From Phyllobacterium sp. T1293 (lineage in GTDB: Bacteria; Pseudomonadota; Alphaproteobacteria; Rhizobiales; Rhizobiaceae): a stretch of DNA of 64,000 bases. This document shows positions 15,349 to 30,849 of the stretch, one piece after another. The notes below the pieces were generated by a model. That model saw nothing but the letters and a program-made list of their open reading frames with translations. It ran no database searches and was not told where the DNA came from. The first letter of the stretch is position 1. Each line of letters begins with the position of its first letter. The stretch spans positions 124,001 to 188,000 of the forward strand of contig NZ_CP088275.1 in assembly GCF_020731415.2 (NCBI RefSeq). Direction: 5' to 3'. The translations under genes and the position numbers were made by a program.

Positions 15349-16536
15349 TTAGCGTTTTGCTTTATCCAGGGCATTCACAAGGTCGGCCCACAGCTCCTCT
15401 ACATTTTCAAGTCCCACATGCAGACGGATGGTTCGCGGGCTCACACCAAAGCGCCCGATTGAATTGGCGTCAGGTGTTTGCTGCAACGAGGCCATTGCCG
15501 GAACGACGAGGCTTTCATGCCCGCCCCAGCTGACACCGATGCGGAACAGCTTGAGTGCGTCGACGAATGTCGGCACGTCGATCTCTTCAGTGACTTCGAA
15601 GGAGAACAGCCCGGTATATCCGGTAAGTGTCGCCTTACCCGGATGATTGGAATAGGCAGGGTGAATGACCCGCTCGACATCGCCGCGTCCTTTCAGACGC
15701 TCGGCGATGGTCAGACCACTCTTCATATGGTGCGGCAGGCGCAGGGTCAGCGTGCGCAGCCCGCGCAGCAAAAGCCATGCCTCAAAGGGTGAAAGCTTTG
15801 CGCCAAGATAAGAATAGGTGCGGCCATTAATCCGGTCGATCATTTCGCGCGATCCCGCGACCACACCGGCCACGGTATCACTGTGCCCACCAAGATATTT
15901 CGAGGCGGAATGCAAGACGAGATCAATGCCATGACTGATCGGCTTCTGGAACAGCGGTGTTGCATAGGAATTATCAATGGTGGTGACAACACCATGCTGC
16001 TTGGCCAGTTGCGCATAATGCGCAATGTCCTGCAGCTCGAACATCATCGAGCTTGGGCTTTCCAGATAAAGCAGCTTGGCACCGGGAAGCGCCGCAGCAA
16101 CCGCATCGGGATCAGAACCATCGACATAATCGACCTTGATACCGAGATGTGGCAGCAGGCGCTCAAACAGACGATACGCATCGCCATAGCAATTGCGCAC
16201 GGCAACGATCCGGTCCCCTGCTCCAACAAAGGCGAGCACCGTGGCGCTGATCGCGCCCATGCCACTCGAAAAAGCGCGGGCAGCTTCGGCCCCCTCAAGT
16301 GCTGCGATCTTGCCTTCAAATTCCATCACGGTCGGATTGTCGCCGCGTGAATAGATCGGCTGGCGTTTGCGACCGGCAAAGGTGTCGGCCATGTCAGCAT
16401 AGTTTTCGAAGGTGAAGAGCGATGTCTGATAGATCGGCGGAACGACCGACCCACCGGGAAACGGGTCATCATGAGCGAGCAAAGTTGCGGCCTGCGCCAT
16501 CATATCCTGATCATAGAAAAAGGGATTGTCGTTCAT
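15349..16536 (-). CDS. Cys/Met-metabolism PLP-dependent enzyme (cystathionine lyase/synthase family)
   Basis: A 395-residue enzyme of the trans-sulfuration family. Visible are PPIYQTSLFTF, YSRGDNPTVMEFEGKIAALEGAE, Asp188 (TIDNSYATP) for the PLP ring nitrogen, and the Schiff-base Lys213 in HSASKYLGGHSD. Members act as cystathionine beta- or gamma-lyases, gamma-synthases or methionine gamma-lyases; the exact reaction is not decided here. It sits between a GntR regulator (4-codon-scale overlap in the longer reading) and an ABC importer, which suggests that the imported compound is its substrate. Confidence 0.86.
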   Translation of the reverse strand: MNDNPFFYDQDMMAQAATLLAHDDPFPGGSVVPPIYQTSLFTFENYADMADTFAGRKRQPIYSRGDNPTVMEFEGKIAALEGAEAARAFSSGMGAISATVLAFVGAGDRIVAVRNCYGDAYRLFERLLPHLGIKVDYVDGSDPDAVAAALPGAKLLYLESPSSMMFELQDIAHYAQLAKQHGVVTTIDNSYATPLFQKPISHGIDLVLHSASKYLGGHSDTVAGVVAGSREMIDRINGRTYSYLGAKLSPFEAWLLLRGLRTLTLRLPHHMKSGLTIAERLKGRGDVERVIHPAYSNHPGKATLTGYTGLFSFEVTEEIDVPTFVDALKLFRIGVSWGGHESLVVPAMASLQQTPDANSIGRFGVSPRTIRLHVGLENVEELWADLVNALDKAKR

Positions 16537-17267
16537 GTCTTGCTCTGCTTCTTGAGATTTGCGGCGCCGCGCCGAAGGTCATTTTCGACAGTGGCAATAA
16601 GTTTCAATGCCTCGGCGCGTGCTCCAACGGGATCACGCGCTGCAATGCAGTTGAACAGGGTACGGTGATAGGGAAAGCTTGCGTGGCCAAAGTCACGCAC
16701 GCCAAGCGGGTGCTCCCAGAACCGGTGAAACATTTCATACATGGCGGCGATGATCTGCTCGAAGAGTGGATTTCCGGATGTGCGGAAGACGGCAAGGTGG
16801 AAATCCCAGTCCTCTTCAGCCGACATGCCTTCGCGGGCGTGGAATGCCTCTTCCATAACAATCAGCTTCTGTTCGATAAAGGCGATGTCTTCATCACTCG
16901 CCCGTTCCGCACATAGAACCGCTGCTTCCGCCTCAAGCCCACGTCGAATTTCCAATGTGTGCATCAGGCTTTTGAAATCATTGCCCGATGGCAATGTCAG
17001 GGGCATATGCAGCATGTTCCGCGTCACCGCTGAACGCAGATAGGTGCCGCTGCCCTGCCGCCGTTCGACAAGTCCGAGTTCCTGCCAGCGGGTGAGCGCT
17101 TCACGCACCGTTGTGCGGCTGACTTTCAGATATTCCGCAAGCACCCGTTCGGTCGGCAAACGGTCGCCGGGTTTCAGCCCTTCGCTGGCAACAAAATCCA
17201 CCAATGCATTCAGCACCGCGTCATCGCGCGATGATGTGTGAACCGGTGAAAGGATCGGATTGATCAC
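16533..17267 (-). CDS. GntR/FadR-family transcriptional regulator
   Basis: About 244 residues: N-terminal winged helix (GLKPGDRLPTERVLAEYLKVSRTTVREAL, ERRQGSGTYL) followed by an FCD ligand domain of all-alpha type. The GTG at 17267 is chosen: AAGG lies 6 nt upstream, while the in-frame ATG at 17312 overlaps a probable promoter (TTGACA on the minus strand at 17331-17326) and an inverted repeat. The longer form would add 15 residues. It most likely controls the 8.5-17.3 kb cluster. Confidence 0.82.
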   Translation of the reverse strand: MINPILSPVHTSSRDDAVLNALVDFVASEGLKPGDRLPTERVLAEYLKVSRTTVREALTRWQELGLVERRQGSGTYLRSAVTRNMLHMPLTLPSGNDFKSLMHTLEIRRGLEAEAAVLCAERASDEDIAFIEQKLIVMEEAFHAREGMSAEEDWDFHLAVFRTSGNPLFEQIIAAMYEMFHRFWEHPLGVRDFGHASFPYHRTLFNCIAARDPVGARAEALKLIATVENDLRRGAANLKKQSKT

Positions 17268-17281
17268 GAAACGCCTTGCAT

Positions 17282-17306
17282 AATTGGTTGGACCATTGTG
17301 CCAATT
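17282..17306. promoter_or_regulatory. Inverted repeat and promoter of the GntR/PLP/ABC cluster
   Basis: AATTGG at 17282-17287 and CCAATT at 17301-17306 flank a core with TTGGACCA. On the minus strand TTGACA (17331-17326) precedes TGAATT (17308-17303) by 17 bp, so the repeat would sit over the start site, a usual place for GntR autoregulation. The -10 match is weak. Confidence 0.45.
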
Positions 17307-17591
17307 CAGCATGGAAATAGGGTCGTGTCAAATGCCGGGTCACAATTTTTGCACAGGAATGGTTGAGTCAGCGCGGCGGAAGATGATAATCGCAATTCCC
17401 ACCCCTCTTGCGAATACAATACGCCTTATTGTTCGGCACCCTCGGAAACATGTCTACTATTTCCCAAGCGGGTGTATCTCATTGTGCCCCGACTGGGCCG
17501 ATACCAATGTATTTTTGAACGACGTTGCACAGAACTACAAATATTGCGTTTGGCATTGATCAATGCCCTCCCCGGAGCGGAGTTCTTGTAA
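17307..17591. other. Intergenic region between divergent GntR and AraC genes
   Basis: No gene is supported. It holds the GntR-cluster promoter at its left end and presumably the AraC-gene promoter at its right end, and marks a change to more A+T-rich sequence on the AraC side. Confidence 0.4.
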
Positions 17592-18362
17592 ATGAAGCAG
17601 AAGCGATTTGTCGGTAATGACTATGAGGTAGCCGTGATCTGGTCCGACCGCATTTCGTTTTCACCGCACAGTCACGATGAATATGTTCTAAGCCATAATA
17701 TTTCCGGTCACGAGCGGCTCAAGTTGGATCGCGTTAAGATCGATGCGCCACAAGGAAGCACTACTTTCTACAATCCGGGCCAGATACAATCGGGCGATGG
17801 GGCCGATTTTATTGTGAGCATCTATCTCAGCACGACATTTTTTCAGAGCGCACAGATATTCAACGGCACGTTTGAGTTCCAAAAGCCCCTAATCTGTGAC
17901 CGGAAGATAGGACGATTGTTTCGAAATTTGATCTCTCTTGGGTTTGATCAGGACGCTTCTCCAGTGATCGACGAGACAATTCTCACCATAATAGATCACA
18001 CCTCCTGTCGCGGTATTGCCTCTCATACGGTCGATAAATCCATTGCACTCACCAGTGTTGCGATGAAAGCCCAGAAAATACTGCTGTCGAATATAGATAC
18101 CGAATTGAGTTTAACTGAGTTATCCGCGCAAATGGCTATCGATAAGGTATCGCTTGTACGCGCCTTCACAAAGGAAACTGGCGTACCGCCAATGACTTGG
18201 CAACGAGCGAAACGGATCGAACTCGCACGCGATCTCCTCAGAAAAGGCTTTTCACCAAGTGATGTTGCCTATCGAGCAGGTTTTGCCGATCAAGCACATC
18301 TAACGCGATGGTTTGCACGATCGTATGGTATCACACCTGCTCGTTTCGCCAAAAAGCAATAG
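17592..18362 (+). CDS. AraC-family transcriptional regulator
   Basis: A 256-residue regulator with an N-terminal cupin-like sensing half (FSPHSHDEYVLSHNISG) and two C-terminal helix-turn-helix units: LTELSAQMAIDKVSLVRAFTKETGVPPMTW, then SPSDVAYRAGFADQAHLTRWFARSYGITPARF. It is directly upstream of, and codirectional with, an oxygenase and a LysE-type exporter gene, and probably activates them in response to an amino acid. The base composition of this gene and the next two is visibly more A+T-rich than the flanks, suggesting acquisition as a unit. Confidence 0.87.
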   Translation: MKQKRFVGNDYEVAVIWSDRISFSPHSHDEYVLSHNISGHERLKLDRVKIDAPQGSTTFYNPGQIQSGDGADFIVSIYLSTTFFQSAQIFNGTFEFQKPLICDRKIGRLFRNLISLGFDQDASPVIDETILTIIDHTSCRGIASHTVDKSIALTSVAMKAQKILLSNIDTELSLTELSAQMAIDKVSLVRAFTKETGVPPMTWQRAKRIELARDLLRKGFSPSDVAYRAGFADQAHLTRWFARSYGITPARFAKKQ

Positions 18363-18441
18363 CGTTCAAGATTCTGATCACCGCATCCCCTACAGCTGAG
18401 CCATTGGAAAACATACAGTGTCTTAGCTTCAAAGGTGTAGT

Positions 18442-19194
18442 ATGAATTTTGACAAAAGATTGAAAGATCATATTTCCTCATTATCGCCGCAACTGCAAAA
18501 AGCGCTGAAAGAGCGGTTTAAACGAGAAGGGACTGTTCAGATTGAACAATTGGTTCCTTCCGATATTGCTGCTGAAATGCATGCACAAGCAAAACGCCTC
18601 TTGAATGAAAACGCAAAAAGGCGCGATCTCAATCTGGCATCAACTGGCAATACTCCGCGTCACTACCGCAGCGTTGGGCGGGATGTGGTCCACACCGATA
18701 ACGGCATAATTACAACCTTCTTTGAATCCGAAGAAATTCGCCGTTATCTTTCGAATATTGCTGACGAAAATCTGAATAAGGTTCCCTACGAACCCGAGGA
18801 GTACATAATCAACTCGCAGGAGAAATCTGGTGATACCCATGGTTGGCACTGGGATGATTACGCATTCGCCCTGATCTGGGTCGTTGACGCTCCTCATCCA
18901 CTCCGTGGTGGACGTATCGAATATGTTAACGACACCGTTTGGGACAAAGAAAATCCCGAGAAGAATCTTGCCGACATATTATCTTCTCGCGAAGTCAAAA
19001 GCATATATGTCAATTCGGGAACCTGCTACCTCATGCGTGCAAATACGACATTGCATCGGGTCGCGCCATTGACTGGACAAACACAGCGGACGGTTATCGT
19101 TTTCACCTATGCCTCGTTGTCGGACATGACGGATACTAGTATCTCGCATGAGACGATGGAGGCGATTTATTCTCCTGAGATTAGCGCCGCCTGA
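18442..19194 (+). CDS. BesD/ArpA-like Fe(II)/2-oxoglutarate-dependent oxygenase
   Basis: A 250-residue protein with no signal peptide. The iron site reads HGWHWDDYAFALIW, giving His136-x-Asp138, with distal His205 in TTLHRVAPLTG and Arg216 in QTQRTVIVFTY for 2-oxoglutarate. Spacing and surrounding residues resemble the free-amino-acid radical halogenase BesD (from memory, iron ligands at His137 and His204 with Gly at 139). Here Asp replaces that Gly, so hydroxylation rather than halogenation is expected. The next gene is a LysE-type exporter, so a basic or other free amino acid is the likely substrate. Regiochemistry is unknown. Confidence 0.75.
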   Translation: MNFDKRLKDHISSLSPQLQKALKERFKREGTVQIEQLVPSDIAAEMHAQAKRLLNENAKRRDLNLASTGNTPRHYRSVGRDVVHTDNGIITTFFESEEIRRYLSNIADENLNKVPYEPEEYIINSQEKSGDTHGWHWDDYAFALIWVVDAPHPLRGGRIEYVNDTVWDKENPEKNLADILSSREVKSIYVNSGTCYLMRANTTLHRVAPLTGQTQRTVIVFTYASLSDMTDTSISHETMEAIYSPEISAA

Positions 19195-19223
19195 AAGAGC
19201 AGACATAGGCTCAAACACTGGCC

Positions 19224-19904
19224 TTGTACTGTACTCCGGGGCCAGATACCCTCGAAAGTTTACCATTCGTGTATGAGAAATTATTTGCTTTTGCGCTGGT
19301 CGAATTGGTCTTCAGCCTGGCACCAGGACCGGCGGTTTTCCTTGTCATCTCCAAATCGATGAGAAAAGGATTTTGGGTAGGAGCGGTTGCAGCCATCGGT
19401 GTTATTGCTGTCAATATACTCTATTTTTTGTTGTCAGCTTTTGGTGTTGGCGCGGCCCTTGCGGCTGCGCCAGTTGCATTTGCAACCCTCAAATATGGTG
19501 GGGCAGCCTATTTAACGTGGAGCGCTATTGGTATTGCACGAGAGATGCACTCGGCGGGCTACAAAGATCAGATAATTGTGCCTGAAAATAAGGACATTCG
19601 GGGCTTAGGACTAACCGACGCGCTTTTCTCGGCCATAGCTGTACAAGCTTCCAGCATAAAGACAATCATCATTTTCCTTTCGATCATTCCCCAATTCATA
19701 GATCCTTCGCAAAGTGCAACACCACAGTTTGTCGTACTTTGCATAATCTCAATCATCGTAGAATTACCCGTTCTCCTTGCATATGCGTTTGCGGCTTCCA
19801 GTGCAGCAAAGCGCTTTCAGAGCATAAGGCTCCGAATGGCCCTAGACGGTATTTCGGCACTTGTTCTGCTCGGTATTGCCGGTGCTATCATCCTAAGAGG
19901 GTGA
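19224..19904 (+). CDS. LysE/RhtB-family amino acid exporter
   Basis: A 226-residue inner-membrane protein. The family start FALVELVFSLAPGPAVFLVISKSMRKGFWVG is intact, followed by KYGGAAYLTWSAIGIAR and about five further helices. LysE/RhtB proteins export amino acids by proton exchange. A start nearer residue 16 (GTG, 19269) is possible because the first 15 residues are unusual. It lies 29 bp after the oxygenase gene, which suggests export of the oxidised amino acid or relief from excess substrate. Confidence 0.85.
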   Translation: MYCTPGPDTLESLPFVYEKLFAFALVELVFSLAPGPAVFLVISKSMRKGFWVGAVAAIGVIAVNILYFLLSAFGVGAALAAAPVAFATLKYGGAAYLTWSAIGIAREMHSAGYKDQIIVPENKDIRGLGLTDALFSAIAVQASSIKTIIIFLSIIPQFIDPSQSATPQFVVLCIISIIVELPVLLAYAFAASSAAKRFQSIRLRMALDGISALVLLGIAGAIILRG

Positions 19905-20313
19905 CAGCAACACCGGTGATAGCCGTGCAGCTGTCTTTATTCAGGCCACTAGAGCAAAACATTGGTTGCCGATATCAACAGCTTCCCGAAAGGGCTATCC
20001 GTGATTTCGTCAAGCAGGAACCTGTCATTATGTGCCCGGTGGGTCGAATACTTCCTTGTCGAACCCGGCTAAACGCAGGCTTCGGCGCGTGTCTTTGCTG
20101 AATATCCCTTCTCTCTCGCCACCGTTTTCCGGGTCTCACGCCTCTCCTGTGCAAAACCAAATCGAAGCCGCTTGTCAAAACTGAAATATTAGAATATTTA
20201 TATTTCACTCGCGATCGTGACTTGCGAAAAGCTGTGAGAAACCGCTCAATACGAGTGGAACAGAATTGCCAGAAGGCGGTGCTCAACCACTGCAGAACCA
20301 AAGGACAACCGGC
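19905..20313. other. Intergenic region before the kdu regulator gene
   Basis: About 400 bp with no gene I can support. It contains the palindrome at 20183-20206; the left part shows no clear repeat, RNA or remnant. Confidence 0.4.
20183..20206. promoter_or_regulatory. A+T-rich palindrome upstream of the kdu regulator
   Basis: Arms GAAATAT (20183-20189) and ATATTTC (20200-20206) flank a central TAGAATATTT. Placement about 110 bp before the GntR start suggests an operator of that regulator or of the whole kdu cluster. Confidence 0.45.
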
Positions 20314-21078
20314 ATGCTCACAGATGACGAAAAAACCAATGATAACGACAGGAAGCGTGACCGGACGCATCCCCTTTCCTCATCTCAAACAGCCTATGTG
20401 CAGCAACGCGCCGCGACACCGCGCGCAGCGACACACATTTATAAAGAACTGCTGGAAGAGATTATCTCCCTGCGGCGCAAGCCGATGGAGCCTATTTCCG
20501 AGAAGGAGATTGCGGCACATTTCGGTGTCAGCCGCACGCCCGTTCATCAGGCGGTGCTGCGTCTGGCCGATGATGGACTGATCGACATTTTTCCGCAGTC
20601 AGGAACCTTTGTCTCCCGCATCCCGCGGCGCGCGCTTTACGAAGCCATCCTCATCCGCAAATCGCTTGAGGAGACAACTGTGAAGCTGGCGGCTGAACAG
20701 GCAAATGCCGCCGATATCAAGCGCCTTGAAGCCAGCATTACTGATCTCGCTCTGGCCGAGGCTGTGAGTGACAATGAACTGTTTCACCAAGCCGATACAA
20801 GTTTTCATCTTCAAATCAATGCGATAGCGGGGTTTCCTGGCATCTGGAATGTCATTCAGCAGGTAAAGATGCAGATCGATCGCTATCGGCGACTGACTCT
20901 GCCGCAGCGCGGACGCTTGACCCGTGTGATTGACGAACATGAAGCCATTCTCGACGGCATCCGCCGGCACGACACCGCCCACGCTATCGAGGCGATGGGC
21001 TTCCATCTCGGCCAAATGCTCAACGAAGTGAAAGAAATGCGCAACGTCAATCCGAGCTACTTCATCGACGATGTATAG
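20314..21078 (+). CDS. GntR-family regulator (FCD type) of the kdu cluster
   Basis: About 254 residues from ATG 20314 (AAAGGA upstream); a longer frame begins at 20266. The winged helix is EPISEKEIAAHFGVSRTPVHQAVLRLADDGLIDIFPQSGTFVSRI, and the C-terminal FCD domain has HQADTSFHLQINAIAG and VIDEHEAILDGIRRHD. It immediately precedes kduI and the transport genes, which it likely represses until an uronate-derived ligand appears. Confidence 0.85.
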   Translation: MLTDDEKTNDNDRKRDRTHPLSSSQTAYVQQRAATPRAATHIYKELLEEIISLRRKPMEPISEKEIAAHFGVSRTPVHQAVLRLADDGLIDIFPQSGTFVSRIPRRALYEAILIRKSLEETTVKLAAEQANAADIKRLEASITDLALAEAVSDNELFHQADTSFHLQINAIAGFPGIWNVIQQVKMQIDRYRRLTLPQRGRLTRVIDEHEAILDGIRRHDTAHAIEAMGFHLGQMLNEVKEMRNVNPSYFIDDV

Positions 21079-26935: not shown

Positions 26936-28279
26936 TCAAACACGCCCCTCACCATTCAGTGCCTTGATAACGGGAACAACCGAATACTGACCAATCTCGG
27001 CCCTGTCGGTGAGTGCCCGCAAATACCCGCCCGGCGAGCGAATTTCCCCTGCGCGCTCCAATATCGCGGCAATCGTGATCGAGGCGTTGATGTCGCCCAT
27101 GGTGTCACGCGCCCTTTCCCATGCATCCGGCGAAATACCGAGCATCGAGCGGACCAAAGCCGCCGTTTGCATCAGATCGCGCCAATCCGCGATGTCATTG
27201 CGGGCATAATCGCGAATTTGCGGGCAAGCTTCCAGCACCGCGCCCAAAGGCAATGCGGCCGTCTTCATTTGCCCCGCGGGCAACTCACCCGGCATTGCAT
27301 CCCGGTGCTGCCCGCGTTTCAGTTTGGCATCCAGCAACCGTTGGCGCATTTTCAACATTGCCTGGCTGCGTCCGGCTTCCGTCTTGTTCTTTCCGGATTC
27401 AGCATTCCTCATATCTTCAGTTTCAGGCGCTGCCGTTTGTTTCTGGCTTTTTTCGGAAGCCCTTTCAAAATGAGATTCTATATTTGAATTCTGAATATGG
27501 TGCTCAAAAGAGGAGTCAGTGCCGCTCATTTCTTCGTTTGAAAGTGTATCCAAATAGGCTTTTTCCACCTTGCTGCGGAGGGTCGCAAGTGCATCACGCC
27601 TCACCTTCATCGTCTCCAAGGGCAGATGCCTGCTCACGCGCCCCGAAAGGGCTGCCAGTTCATCCGCATAGGCTTCCCAATCGCCGGAGCGTTCTTCACT
27701 GAGACCCGCATCAATGGTTTTGGAAACGTCACGCAAATGAATGGTGATTTCGCTGCGGATACGATGAATAGCCCGCTCCAAATCCCGTGCAGCTGCCGCA
27801 TGTTCACTGATTTCATCAACGCGCAGCGCCAATGGTGACAGATCAAAACCGAATGCATGTTCGATTTCTCCACCCTCGCCGCGCCTGGCATAGCGTTTGC
27901 CATTTGGACTATCGCGCCGGATGATCAATCCCGCTTCCACGAGCGCCGCGAGATGCCTGCGAATAGTCGCAGAAGACATGCCACGCGTGCGCATCGACAG
28001 TTCCGCATTGGATGGGAACACCACCACAGGCGTGCTTCCGTCCAATAAGGTCTCCGGATAGAAGCTCAGAAGGGCTTCCAGCACGGCAATCGTACGATCC
28101 GAAAGAAAGAATGCCGCGCGCGCCTGCGTTAATTCACGCAAAAGCGCCCATTTTTCCGGGTGATTGGCGTCTGTACCCGCCAGCTTTTCACGGGCACGCG
28201 CTGTCTTTTCCTGCACGGCGAACATGGCATGGGACAGCGATCGCCCGCCAAAAGGCGTCGTTGCAAAACGATCAGTCAT
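26936..28279 (-). CDS. repC: Replication initiator RepC
   Basis: About 447 residues from ATG 28279 (GAGG 7 nt upstream; a longer frame starts at 28303). The N-terminal domain carries TTPFGGRSLSHAMF, KWALLRELTQARAAFFLSDRTIAVLEALLSFYPE, PSNAELSMRTRGMSSATIRRHLAALVEAGLIIRRDSPNGKRYARR, the RepC DNA-binding signature. The end has WRDLMQTAALVRSMLGISPDAWERA. RepC starts replication of repABC replicons; the origin usually lies inside its own coding sequence in an A+T-richer part (here around 27460-27500). Confidence 0.95.
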   Translation of the reverse strand: MTDRFATTPFGGRSLSHAMFAVQEKTARAREKLAGTDANHPEKWALLRELTQARAAFFLSDRTIAVLEALLSFYPETLLDGSTPVVVFPSNAELSMRTRGMSSATIRRHLAALVEAGLIIRRDSPNGKRYARRGEGGEIEHAFGFDLSPLALRVDEISEHAAAARDLERAIHRIRSEITIHLRDVSKTIDAGLSEERSGDWEAYADELAALSGRVSRHLPLETMKVRRDALATLRSKVEKAYLDTLSNEEMSGTDSSFEHHIQNSNIESHFERASEKSQKQTAAPETEDMRNAESGKNKTEAGRSQAMLKMRQRLLDAKLKRGQHRDAMPGELPAGQMKTAALPLGAVLEACPQIRDYARNDIADWRDLMQTAALVRSMLGISPDAWERARDTMGDINASITIAAILERAGEIRSPGGYLRALTDRAEIGQYSVVPVIKALNGEGRV

Positions 28280-28368
28280 TTTCTCTACCTCAAATTGAGG
28301 CAAGGGAAAGGTGTTGCCGGAACGCGTCCGACTCTTGACAAGTCAGGTAGGAAGTGATTCTCTAAAAT

Positions 28369-28419
28369 TGCTACATTGAAGAGGGCTTCCGGGGCGGTAA
28401 CGTTCTGGGGGCCTTTTTT
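28369..28419 (+). ncRNA. Counter-transcribed RNA of the repABC operon (incA-type ctRNA)
   Basis: A small RNA of about 50 nt opposite to the repB-repC leader is expected from family knowledge. The sequence shows its intrinsic terminator: GGCTTCCGG (28384-28392) pairs with CTGGGGGCC (28405-28413, with G-U pairs), followed by TTTTTT. A TTGACA box lies about 30 bp before the expected start. In related replicons this RNA lowers repC expression and determines incompatibility. The 5' end is estimated. Confidence 0.7.
28384..28419 (+). terminator. Intrinsic terminator of the ctRNA
   Basis: A 9-bp stem with a 12-nt loop directly followed by six T residues on the plus strand. Confidence 0.75.
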
Positions 28420-28486
28420 CTTGCCGTTGTTCCTTCTCTCTGTTCTTTCTGTTCAACGCTTACACAAAACCAGATTACGCCGTAGT

Positions 28487-29557
28487 TCAGGCCTTTCGCT
28501 CGCTTCTGTAGCGCTGCAAAAGCCCGTTTAACTCGCCAGCCACAAAATCCACGAAGCCTTCGGGAACCGTGTCTGCAAAACCGATAGATCGCTCCTTTTT
28601 GTTGTTCAGAAGCTGCGCAATGACATCACCATTGCCGTCGCATATGTCCCTTGCAGCAGCAGGATCAGTCTTTCCCGCCTTTGTGGCAGCCGGTTTGTTG
28701 AGATCCAGCAACCGCTCAAACACCGCATCGAAGCGACCGTCACTGCCGTGCAACTTGAAATGATCCTGCTGAACCACTTTTTGAGCGGCATCGCGCCCTT
28801 CGGGCTTTCTCAGCATATCAGCCAATTTAACCCAGCGCGGCCGGCCAACCTTGGGTGCGGGCCCGATTGCCTGCAGGATCGGCTTCGGAATGGCGTCCAC
28901 AACCTGCAGATAACGGGTCATCTCTGCCTTGTGCAGAGCCAAAGCATCCTGCACGACCGAGCGGCTAAACCCCCGGTCAATCAGATTGCGGGCAAAGAAC
29001 GCACGCTCGATGAATGAGAGATCGCGGCGCTCGGCGTTCTCCTTGCCCTGCGCCACCACAAGTTGGGCGTCGCTCAGTTCACGGATAATCGCCTGCACAG
29101 GCAGCTTAAGCTCGGCTGCAGCCCGCAAACGGCGATGGCCATAGGCGGTCTGATAGTAGCCGTGCCGCTCCGGATGCGGGCGGACAAGGATCGGCACCTG
29201 CTGACCGTTCAGCTTGATGCTCTCGACCAGTTCCCGGAAGGTCTCATCGAGGCCGAAATTGTGGCTCAGCCTATCTTCGACAAAAGAATACTCAATAAGC
29301 TGGGGATCAATCTCGATGACCCGTTCCGAACCTTCAAGACTTTCTCTAATCTTGCGGGCATCCTCAAGCTCACGCGAGATACCCCCGAGCGAAAGGCCCA
29401 TAGCTTTAATAGCACCAGAAGCTGTCCGCTGCTTTGGTTGCTCTGGTAAATTGTCTTCCACTGGAGCCGGATTGACCGGTTTGGGCTCCGGCTGGGGAGC
29501 CGTATCCACCGTTCCAAAAAGTGCCTTGAGTTGATCCCTGCGGTTCTTGTCAGTCAT
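28487..29557 (-). CDS. repB: Partition protein RepB (ParB family)
   Basis: A 356-residue ParB-like centromere-binding protein. It shows QQVPILVRPHPERHGYYQTAYGHRRLRAAAELKLPVQAIIRELSDAQLVVAQGKENAERRDLSFIERAFFA, the ParB nuclease/CTPase region, then a helix-turn-helix (GFSRSVVQDALALHKAEMTRYLQV). It acts with RepA to segregate the replicon and to regulate the operon. It lies 8 bp after repA. Confidence 0.95.
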   Translation of the reverse strand: MTDKNRRDQLKALFGTVDTAPQPEPKPVNPAPVEDNLPEQPKQRTASGAIKAMGLSLGGISRELEDARKIRESLEGSERVIEIDPQLIEYSFVEDRLSHNFGLDETFRELVESIKLNGQQVPILVRPHPERHGYYQTAYGHRRLRAAAELKLPVQAIIRELSDAQLVVAQGKENAERRDLSFIERAFFARNLIDRGFSRSVVQDALALHKAEMTRYLQVVDAIPKPILQAIGPAPKVGRPRWVKLADMLRKPEGRDAAQKVVQQDHFKLHGSDGRFDAVFERLLDLNKPAATKAGKTDPAAARDICDGNGDVIAQLLNNKKERSIGFADTVPEGFVDFVAGELNGLLQRYRSERKA

Positions 29558-29565
29558 CGCTCACC

Positions 29566-30849
29566 TCACACAGGCCGGTTCCAGGCCTTGAAGATCAGGC
29601 TCTGGATTTCAGCGTTGACGGAGGACAGCGATTCAATCGCCCGGTCATAGGTGGCCCGGGTGAAACTATCGCGCGAGACTTCGTAAAGTGTCTGCTTGGT
29701 CAGGCCCGCATCAGAAAAGGCAGTTGATTTGACAACAGCCGATGTGAGGACCCGATCACCGAACAGCGAGCGCAGGAAGCCGGCAATCTGCTGCTGTGGC
29801 GCATCATTGGGTTCGAAGCGGGTAATCAGATAGCGCATGAAATCGAAATTGAGTTCACCGCCTGCTTCCCGCACAACGGCCAGAAGATCGGCTGTCATGA
29901 ACAGGAACTGGCTCATGGACGCCACATCAAGCATCTGGGGATGCACGGTGACGAGAACCGATGTCGCGGCGCAAAGTGCAGAAAGCGTCAAAAAGCCCAG
30001 CTGCGGCGGGCAATCAATGACGACCACATCGTAATCATCCGATATTGTATCGAGTGCTGCCTGAACGCGGGCAAAGAAAAGCTGCTGTTCGATGCTCTGC
30101 TGCGCGCCATGCTGGCGGTCAGCAAGCATTTGCGGCGTGGTATGCTCGAACTCCTGCAATTCAAGATTGCCCGGAATAAGATCAAGCCCGTCAAAATAGG
30201 TCTTGCGGATAATATCGCGCATCAACCGCCGTTCGCCATCATAGCGAATGGCACCGTAGAGCGTGTCATTACCGGTCAGATCGAGTTCCGGCTGATAGCC
30301 AAACAAGGCTGACATGGAAGCCTGCGGATCAAGATCGACCGCAAGCACACGAAAACCTGCCATGGCCAGATGCTGGGCAAGGTGCGCGCTGGTGGTGGTC
30401 TTGCCGGAACCGCCTTTGAAGTTGGTGACGGCAATCACCTGCATATGTTCATTGGCAGATGGATCGCGATGCGGCAGATAGGTTTTCGCCTTTGGTCCGC
30501 CAGCATCGGCGAGATGATGACGCAGCGCATTGATTTCAGCGAGCGAATAGAGCCGGCGGCCATTTGCCCCGGTTTCAGGCTGCGGGCCCTCTCCTGCGAT
30601 GGAAAGCTGACGCAAATAACCGTCTGAAACACCAATGAGCTTGGCAGCCTCGCCACTTGTGAACTTGCGCAGTGTTTTTTGCGCCGTCGGTGGAAACAAC
30701 CGGTTACGCATTGCCTGCAGCTGTGCCGACAGCATTTCGGCGTCAGCAGCAATAGCCCGGTCAGCGGTCAAGGCAGCGGATGGCTGTGGTACAGCCGCTA
30801 TTTGCGCACCATCCGTTTGTGTTGTCTGTACCGCGTTCATCATAGTCAC
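29566..30849 (-). CDS. repA: Partition ATPase RepA (ParA family)
   Basis: A 427-residue ParA ATPase. An N-terminal helix-turn-helix region (KFTSGEAAKLIGVSDGYLRQL) is typical of RepA proteins that autorepress the operon. The deviant Walker A FKGGSGKTTTS is at 144-154, followed by VDLDPQASMSALFG and VVIDCPPQLGFLTLSAL. The GTG at 30849 has AGGA at a good distance; ATG codons at 30843 and 30840 are alternatives. It is the first gene of the operon. Confidence 0.95.
   Translation of the reverse strand: MTMMNAVQTTQTDGAQIAAVPQPSAALTADRAIAADAEMLSAQLQAMRNRLFPPTAQKTLRKFTSGEAAKLIGVSDGYLRQLSIAGEGPQPETGANGRRLYSLAEINALRHHLADAGGPKAKTYLPHRDPSANEHMQVIAVTNFKGGSGKTTTSAHLAQHLAMAGFRVLAVDLDPQASMSALFGYQPELDLTGNDTLYGAIRYDGERRLMRDIIRKTYFDGLDLIPGNLELQEFEHTTPQMLADRQHGAQQSIEQQLFFARVQAALDTISDDYDVVVIDCPPQLGFLTLSALCAATSVLVTVHPQMLDVASMSQFLFMTADLLAVVREAGGELNFDFMRYLITRFEPNDAPQQQIAGFLRSLFGDRVLTSAVVKSTAFSDAGLTKQTLYEVSRDSFTRATYDRAIESLSSVNAEIQSLIFKAWNRPV

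Follow-up and report, generated by a model that had tools for sequence, protein, structure and literature searches.

A predicted amino-acid hydroxylase encoded with an AraC-family regulator and a LysE-superfamily exporter in a variable slot beside repABC of Phyllobacterium sp. T1293

In Bacillus thuringiensis the IDO operon combines the gene of a free-isoleucine hydroxylase with those of a reductase and an exporter of the RhtA family, and in the excerpts of PMC3684760 that describe them the IDO and Hil operons are alike in encoding a free-amino-acid hydroxylase together with an exporter. A second point of comparison is the BesD family, whose solved members include BesD (6nie), HalB (7u6i/7u6j), HalD (7u6h), HalA (9oer, the chains of which are named lysine halogenase in the PDB) and the lysine hydroxylase Hydrox (7jsd). 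According to the parts of PMC13244439 that deal with its conversion, Hydrox becomes a halogenase through D142G with N149I and V223N, the Asp to Gly exchange being the key change. Here we analysed a window of 64,000 nucleotides from the plant-associated bacterium Phyllobacterium sp. T1293 (NZ_CP088275.1, positions 124,001 to 188,000), in which a unit of three genes encodes an AraC-family regulator, a BesD-like oxygenase and a LysE-superfamily exporter. By analogy, the Bacillus IDO operon is the nearest precedent of this unit. The IDO and Hil systems differ from it, as far as those excerpts of PMC3684760 go, in their PF10014 dioxygenases, their added reductase and their RhtA or MFS exporters in place of LysE, and the Hil regulator is of the LysR type rather than AraC. 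Unlike the IDO operon the unit has no second enzyme, and a profile search gave no match to a PF10014 dioxygenase at E 0.01.

The three genes form a compact trio on the + strand. The first (17592–18362) encodes a regulator of 256 amino acids with an N-terminal cupin-like domain (AraC_binding, PF02311) and a C-terminal HTH_18 domain (67.2 bits, cut-off 33.6). It is followed, after a gap of 79 bases, by the gene at 18442–19194 for a predicted free-amino-acid hydroxylase of 250 amino acids, a BesD/HalD-family Fe(II)/2-oxoglutarate oxygenase that matches PF23169 (HalD) over residues 16–243 at 295.8 bits (cut-off 26, E 2.4e-88). About 74 bases further on lies the exporter gene, ending at 19904, for which the GTG at 19269 is the likelier start and the TTG at 19224 a possible one; its product scores 93.3 bits with PF01810 (LysE; cut-off 25.6, E 1.8e-26). 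The genes and their assignment, including the likeness of the oxygenase to BesD, are therefore as the original prediction had them, except that its 'LysE-type exporter' holds at the level of the PF01810 superfamily and not at that of the lysine-exporter subfamily. The best subfamily model was TIGR00949 (RhtB, homoserine/threonine efflux; 85.7 bits, under its cut-off of 183.95), whereas the lysine exporter model TIGR00948 gave 28.3 bits, under a cut-off of 213.65; by model score the exporter would thus be nearer to RhtB-type proteins and outside the lysine-exporter subfamily. In a sequence search against solved structures the AraC protein was matched in its DNA-binding domain only and the exporter was without a sound match.

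We found that the iron site of the oxygenase is complete. The codons of H136-W137-D138, which include two of the three iron ligands, lie at 18847–18855 on the + strand (H136, CAC, 18847–18849; D138, GAT, 18853–18855), and by alignment the third ligand is H205 (19054–19056, +; H207 of the BesD chain) and the 2-oxoglutarate-binding Arg is R216 (19087–19089, +; R218 of the BesD chain). All four residues of this HxD...H triad plus Arg are invariant in the alignments. It can be seen that H136 and D138 align with the His and Gly of BesD, HalB and HalD and with the His and Asp of Hydrox, so that the carboxylate ligand is Asp138 where the BesD-type radical halogenases, HalA included, have Gly; an Asp in place of the halide-making Gly had been predicted. 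At the places of Hydrox D142, N149 and V223 the oxygenase has D138, I145 and V220; Hydrox differs from it in Asn149, and HalB, HalD, HalA and BesD have Asn where it has Val220. Ile145 is present in all 51 of the nearest homologues counted, and as it is usual in the Asp clade, the site formed by D138, I145 and V220 reads as that of a hydroxylase. A halogenase reading was dropped because Asp138 occupies the halide place, and Ile145 was dropped as a halogenase sign. The C-terminal HETM motif (236–239) was likewise dropped as a HalB-like sign: H236 is present in 199/199 rows, ETM is common, and the BesD and Hydrox pieces compared end earlier. The BesD equivalog model NF042920 (L-lysine 4-chlorinase) gave the oxygenase 171.7 bits, under its cut-off of 450. 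We conclude that membership of the BesD/HalD family with a hydroxylase-type Asp ligand is supported by these comparisons.

The Asp ligand was present in 120/120 homologues (the best 120 of 365) and in 81/81 loci from the genome scan, the latter count being biased because one of the scan patterns was HGWHWDDY. The locus count is without the window loci L081 and L082 and the minus-strand loci L086–L088 and L090, L086–L089 being the same places as L001, L003, L005 and L007; the frameshifted homologue P0002 was kept out of the residue counts and of the tree. P0002 (209 amino acids) is a near-identical homologue that leaves the oxygenase reading frame after residue 186 and is thus without the third iron ligand; it is either a damaged gene copy of a sister strain or the result of a sequencing error there. 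Five homologues (P0034, P0059, P0084, P0085 and P0119) are publicly named HalD/BesD family halogenase despite a hydroxylase-type Asp, probably a misnaming, and 'ArpA protein' was met only as the UniRef name of one Bacillus homologue.

Residues R73, E119 and H133 were present in 199/199 rows counted (some of them duplicates) and D139 in all except two; they correspond to R77, E123, H137 and D143 of the BesD lysine site, which in the simulations described in the excerpts of PMC13244439 bind lysine by its amino and carboxylate groups. That site also includes the lid residues D239 and W241 (chain numbering, same source), and the BesD piece compared ends before the lid. As these four residues occur across the family, they speak for a free amino acid as substrate without telling which one. 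A predicted structure of the oxygenase (predicted local distance difference test score 94.8) has a fold that matches solved HalD-family members, the best match being HalB with lysine and the closest structures being lysine- and ornithine-bound; in the PDB titles lysine goes with HalB and ornithine with HalD, and the known products are 5-chlorolysine for HalB and 4-chloroornithine for HalD. Two points weigh against naming a particular side chain, namely that the amino-acid-binding residues and the fold alike are family-wide, and that halogenases of the group accept lysine, ornithine, leucine, isoleucine or norleucine (PMC10187165, in the portion that lists their substrates). A quick-method tree of 95 proteins, built without six loci with identical proteins and without 104 of the 120 listed homologues, split the oxygenases of nine araC-oxygenase-lysE units from four solved references by a starred branch (97), with several long branches. 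BesD paired with Hydrox (95*) and HalB with HalD, and the clade of the oxygenase lay elsewhere, so that the tree shows no close kinship with Hydrox. As the oxygenase sits in its own clade apart from the solved references, lysine as its substrate is a guess.

Is the three-gene order peculiar to this window? A genome scan for the oxygenase found 111 relatives, of which 80 loci were kept, and the search for the gene set in other genomes that had been proposed was rewarding: the eight closest loci, all from Alphaproteobacteria, have araC, oxygenase and lysE in the same order and on the same strand, and a ninth such unit is present in genome G138 (L090). The AraC relatives beside related oxygenases are 32–48% identical. 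Allorhizobium (L071) has the same gene order, with an AraC 48% identical (the most similar), an oxygenase 36% and an exporter 19%, and in Aureimonas (L013) the order is oxygenase-araC-lysE. No further gene family was common to more than two among the window unit and L001–L008, where neighbours were not domain-checked and the open reading frame (ORF) calls of L008 are unreliable.

The upstream region offers a second link between the genes. A putative AraC operator, AATAGCGTTCAAGA, lies across the araC stop codon (18358–18371, +), and its core GTTCAAGA (18364–18371) starts 78 bp before the ATG of the oxygenase. When the araC-oxygenase gaps of 11 units were compared, a core adjoining the araC stop was found as strict RTHCAAGA in 8/11 and in a degenerate form in 11/11, against means of 0.17 (maximum 2) and 0.87 (maximum 5), respectively, in 1000 rounds of shuffling. 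A motif-free test gave a similar picture, the best 7-mer with one free position being common to 8/11 units and to no more than 6 in any of 200 shuffles. Outside this sample, L013, L019 and L020, in which araC lies elsewhere, carry the strict core 73–77 bp upstream of the oxygenase, and L009, L010, L011, L012 and L014, which are without AraC, are without it. Over the 80 loci, the strict core occurred 50–200 bp upstream of the oxygenase in 11/12 AraC-positive and 0/68 AraC-negative loci, and within 60–120 bp in 10/12 and 0/68 (Fisher 4e-11); the degenerate form occurred within 50–200 bp in 12/12 and 2/68. In L071 the strict core falls within araC, and at the expected place this locus has the degenerate form only. 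We conclude that the conserved site is probably the operator of AraC, and that the linkage of regulator, enzyme and exporter as a cassette, as originally predicted, is supported by their recurrent order and by the conserved upstream site.

A number of observations weigh against such a linked and dedicated system. For the site, the first motif seed was mostly non-significant at loci taken singly (p 0.16 in the window); L006 and L071 have a match at the expected place only to the degenerate form, which over the wider range is also present in 2/68 AraC-negative loci; and the 14-base extended form matches the window and just 5/12 AraC-positive loci. The upstream G+C content is 0.51 in AraC-positive and 0.59 in AraC-negative loci, 45/68 of the latter being at or above 0.6, and this, together with kinship among the loci, weakens the Fisher p value. 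For the linkage, no LysE match was found in 70/80 loci (of which L023 and L062 hold less than 1 kb downstream), and L071 joins the most similar AraC to a distant oxygenase and exporter. Gene distances in 10 units agreed weakly in Mantel tests (Spearman: AraC-oxygenase 0.39, p 0.036; oxygenase-LysE 0.21, p 0.14; AraC-LysE 0.24, p 0.11), and strict co-inheritance of the three genes was rejected on this account. An AraC relative in genome G103 is accompanied within 1.5 kb by neither an oxygenase gene nor a LysE gene, and the smallest starred set in the tree that holds all nine units has 26 rows and includes L011, L013, L014, L019 and L020, which are without that gene order.

Some further observations concern the regulator and exporter. 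The extended site AATNNCRTNCAAGA has three exact matches in the 5.07 Mb genome (four contigs), the putative operator and two inside ORFs, and the latter two were discarded as further AraC targets. A second extended-site copy lies upstream of araC in Breoghania (L004, 7055–7068, − strand), which suggests self-regulation of araC there; a copy in the AraC-negative L010 (7523–7536, − strand) falls inside a permease ORF. The orphan AraC relative of G103 (L124, G103:C8:53441-54181) is from the same genus as G138, the bearer of a whole unit. A hidden Markov model of LysE built from the unit exporters gave no further match across the 80 loci at E 1e-5.

We also found that the unit occupies a place of variable gene content. 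The oxygenase gene is present in 1/20 genomes of the genus and in 6/397 of the order, its own included, the genus-wide protein search having recovered the window's own oxygenase as positive control. The flanks of the unit match Phyllobacterium plasmids at 80–83%, and repC, repB and repA lie at 26936–30849. Compared with a close relative (G015), whose flanks are 94% identical, homology ends at 17359 and resumes at 20051, leaving 17360–20050 without a counterpart; in G015 the slot holds an acetolactate synthase large-subunit gene. The slot gene of G008, and by protein identity (83%) that of G003, is also an acetolactate synthase, and G013 has an EAL-domain gene instead, so that 17313–20265 of the window, beside repABC, is a variable slot in the genus. 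It is bounded by a FadR/GntR regulator on the left (16533–17312, −; in 19/20 genus genomes) and a GntR regulator ahead of kduI and kduD on the right (20266–21078, +; 7/20), both outside the unit. These two regulators are close together in the window genome (G000), G015, G008, G003 and G013; in G012 and G006 tens of kilobases separate them. The differing slot content across relatives indicates that the unit most likely replaced earlier slot genes. The araC, oxygenase and exporter genes have G+C contents of 0.475, 0.467 and 0.480, the three lowest among 52 genes (mean 0.543, standard deviation 0.024; 60 ORFs of at least 200 amino acids minus 8 that overlap others), and the 2313-bp stretch of the unit is within the lowest 0.35% of equal-sized windows. 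That the genes are richer in A+T than their surroundings was thus confirmed, and the suggestion that they are transferable gains from it: slot replacement, low G+C and patchy spread together support horizontal transfer of the unit.

Several other features of the slot were considered. A perfect 12-bp inverted repeat stands either side of it (TTTTGCACAGGA, 17347–17358; TCCTGTGCAAAA, 20145–20156); the left arm occurs in G015 too and so lies outside the insert. On plasmids of P. zundukense and T1018 the left flank is followed by other genes, and the right flank is absent. A displaced copy of the acetolactate synthase gene elsewhere in the genome was dropped as a candidate, its best relative being 72% identical and the next 35%. 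Synthase remnants are not claimed from short matches at 17476–17500 and 19998–20038, the best of which was reached in 1/200 shuffles, and spread of the cassette on plasmids was dropped, as the one match was 143 bases at 71% on a Peribacillus plasmid. A terminator-like hairpin 3′ of the exporter (19918–19935, +) is not above chance (hairpin scan, fold z −0.91); promoter and terminator scans of the region were at background, with 2 hairpins found and 3.2 expected by shuffling.

Taken as a whole, we consider it reasonably probable that the locus was acquired horizontally and works as a self-contained 'hydroxylate and export' unit. AraC would sense an amino acid or a related effector and, judging from gene order, site and family, bind around RTNCAAGA and turn on oxygenase and exporter. 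The oxygenase, with Fe(II), O2 and 2-oxoglutarate, would then place a hydroxyl group on a carbon in the side chain of a free L-amino acid. The substrate would most likely be lysine or ornithine, hydroxylated at C4 or C5. Release of the hydroxy amino acid by the RhtB-like exporter would fit, since relatives of this exporter move homoserine and threonine, and the pathway probably ends with the hydroxy amino acid itself, as the unit has no other conserved enzyme. More tentatively, and with some doubt, the unit may be minimal and mobile, devoted to the secretion of one hydroxylated free amino acid and run by a dedicated AraC whose operator has the core RTNCAAGA; this type of regulator and site would govern BesD-family hydroxylases across Alpha- and Gammaproteobacteria, enzyme and exporter would be exchangeable under one switch, and the product would act outside the cell as antimetabolite or signal.

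The same parts could serve the opposite purpose, detoxification, if what the unit detects is an amino acid in excess or of foreign origin, from a plant for example, which is oxidised and then exported. A local regulator, as indicated by an extended site that outside ORFs occurs solely here in the genome, would suit this, as would the finding that no other enzyme family recurred in more than two of the nine units (neighbours not domain-checked), and LysE-superfamily exporters can ease amino-acid overload. However, oxidation before export would cost 2-oxoglutarate needlessly if the exporter takes the parent compound, and relatives in other groups occupy apparent biosynthetic clusters; we therefore regard detoxification as possible but unlikely.

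Those relatives adjoin ATP-grasp ligases, methyltransferases, EamA/MFS transporters, very large ORFs, or a decarboxylase with a permease. In Ectobacillus (L010, 4637–8681) a 52% oxygenase relative is flanked by an Orn/Lys/Arg decarboxylase and an amino-acid permease, which hints at a basic amino acid. ATP-grasp ligases lie beside the sister-clade oxygenases of L019 (7992–12480), L020 (7050–11546), L009, L012 and L014 (Pantoea, Variovorax, Bacillales), mostly with a methyltransferase (L009, L014, L019 and L020) and an EamA or MFS transporter; the Pantoea ligase (L020) is related to the dapdiamide synthase DdaF (216 bits, cut-off 840), and these loci perhaps encode a dipeptide pathway. ORFs of more than 2000 amino acids beside the oxygenases of L015 and L018 may be nonribosomal peptide synthetases (not domain-checked). 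Such neighbourhoods would favour tailoring, in which the hydroxy amino acid goes to a ligase or synthetase encoded elsewhere in the genome and the exporter releases a finished peptide. We think this improbable, as no such family is common to the close units (3.7 kb of L090 covered; L008 ORF calls unreliable) and RhtB-like exporters are known to carry single amino acids.

Fe(II)/2-oxoglutarate enzymes with the same ligands can desaturate. Desaturation, halogenation or cleavage by the oxygenase is nonetheless very improbable, for although the oxygenase shares Ile at position 145 with BesD, HalB and HalD, that residue is usual in the Asp clade, and Asp138 fills the place left free for halide, the exchange of which for Gly was key in the Hydrox conversion (excerpts of PMC13244439).

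The hydroxylation and export of a free amino acid thus remains the reading we prefer for the unit. In the open-access literature searched, no title or abstract described an araC-oxygenase-lysE cassette and no account was found of a natural role for Asp-type BesD-family members. The combination of regulator, hydroxylase-type enzyme, exporter and switch site looks new, each part being of a known kind. The natural role of such enzymes becomes testable with a unit that carries a switch site of its own, through the amino acid that induces it and the compound that appears in the medium, and it could serve as a ready set of sensor, enzyme and exporter for making hydroxylated amino acids.
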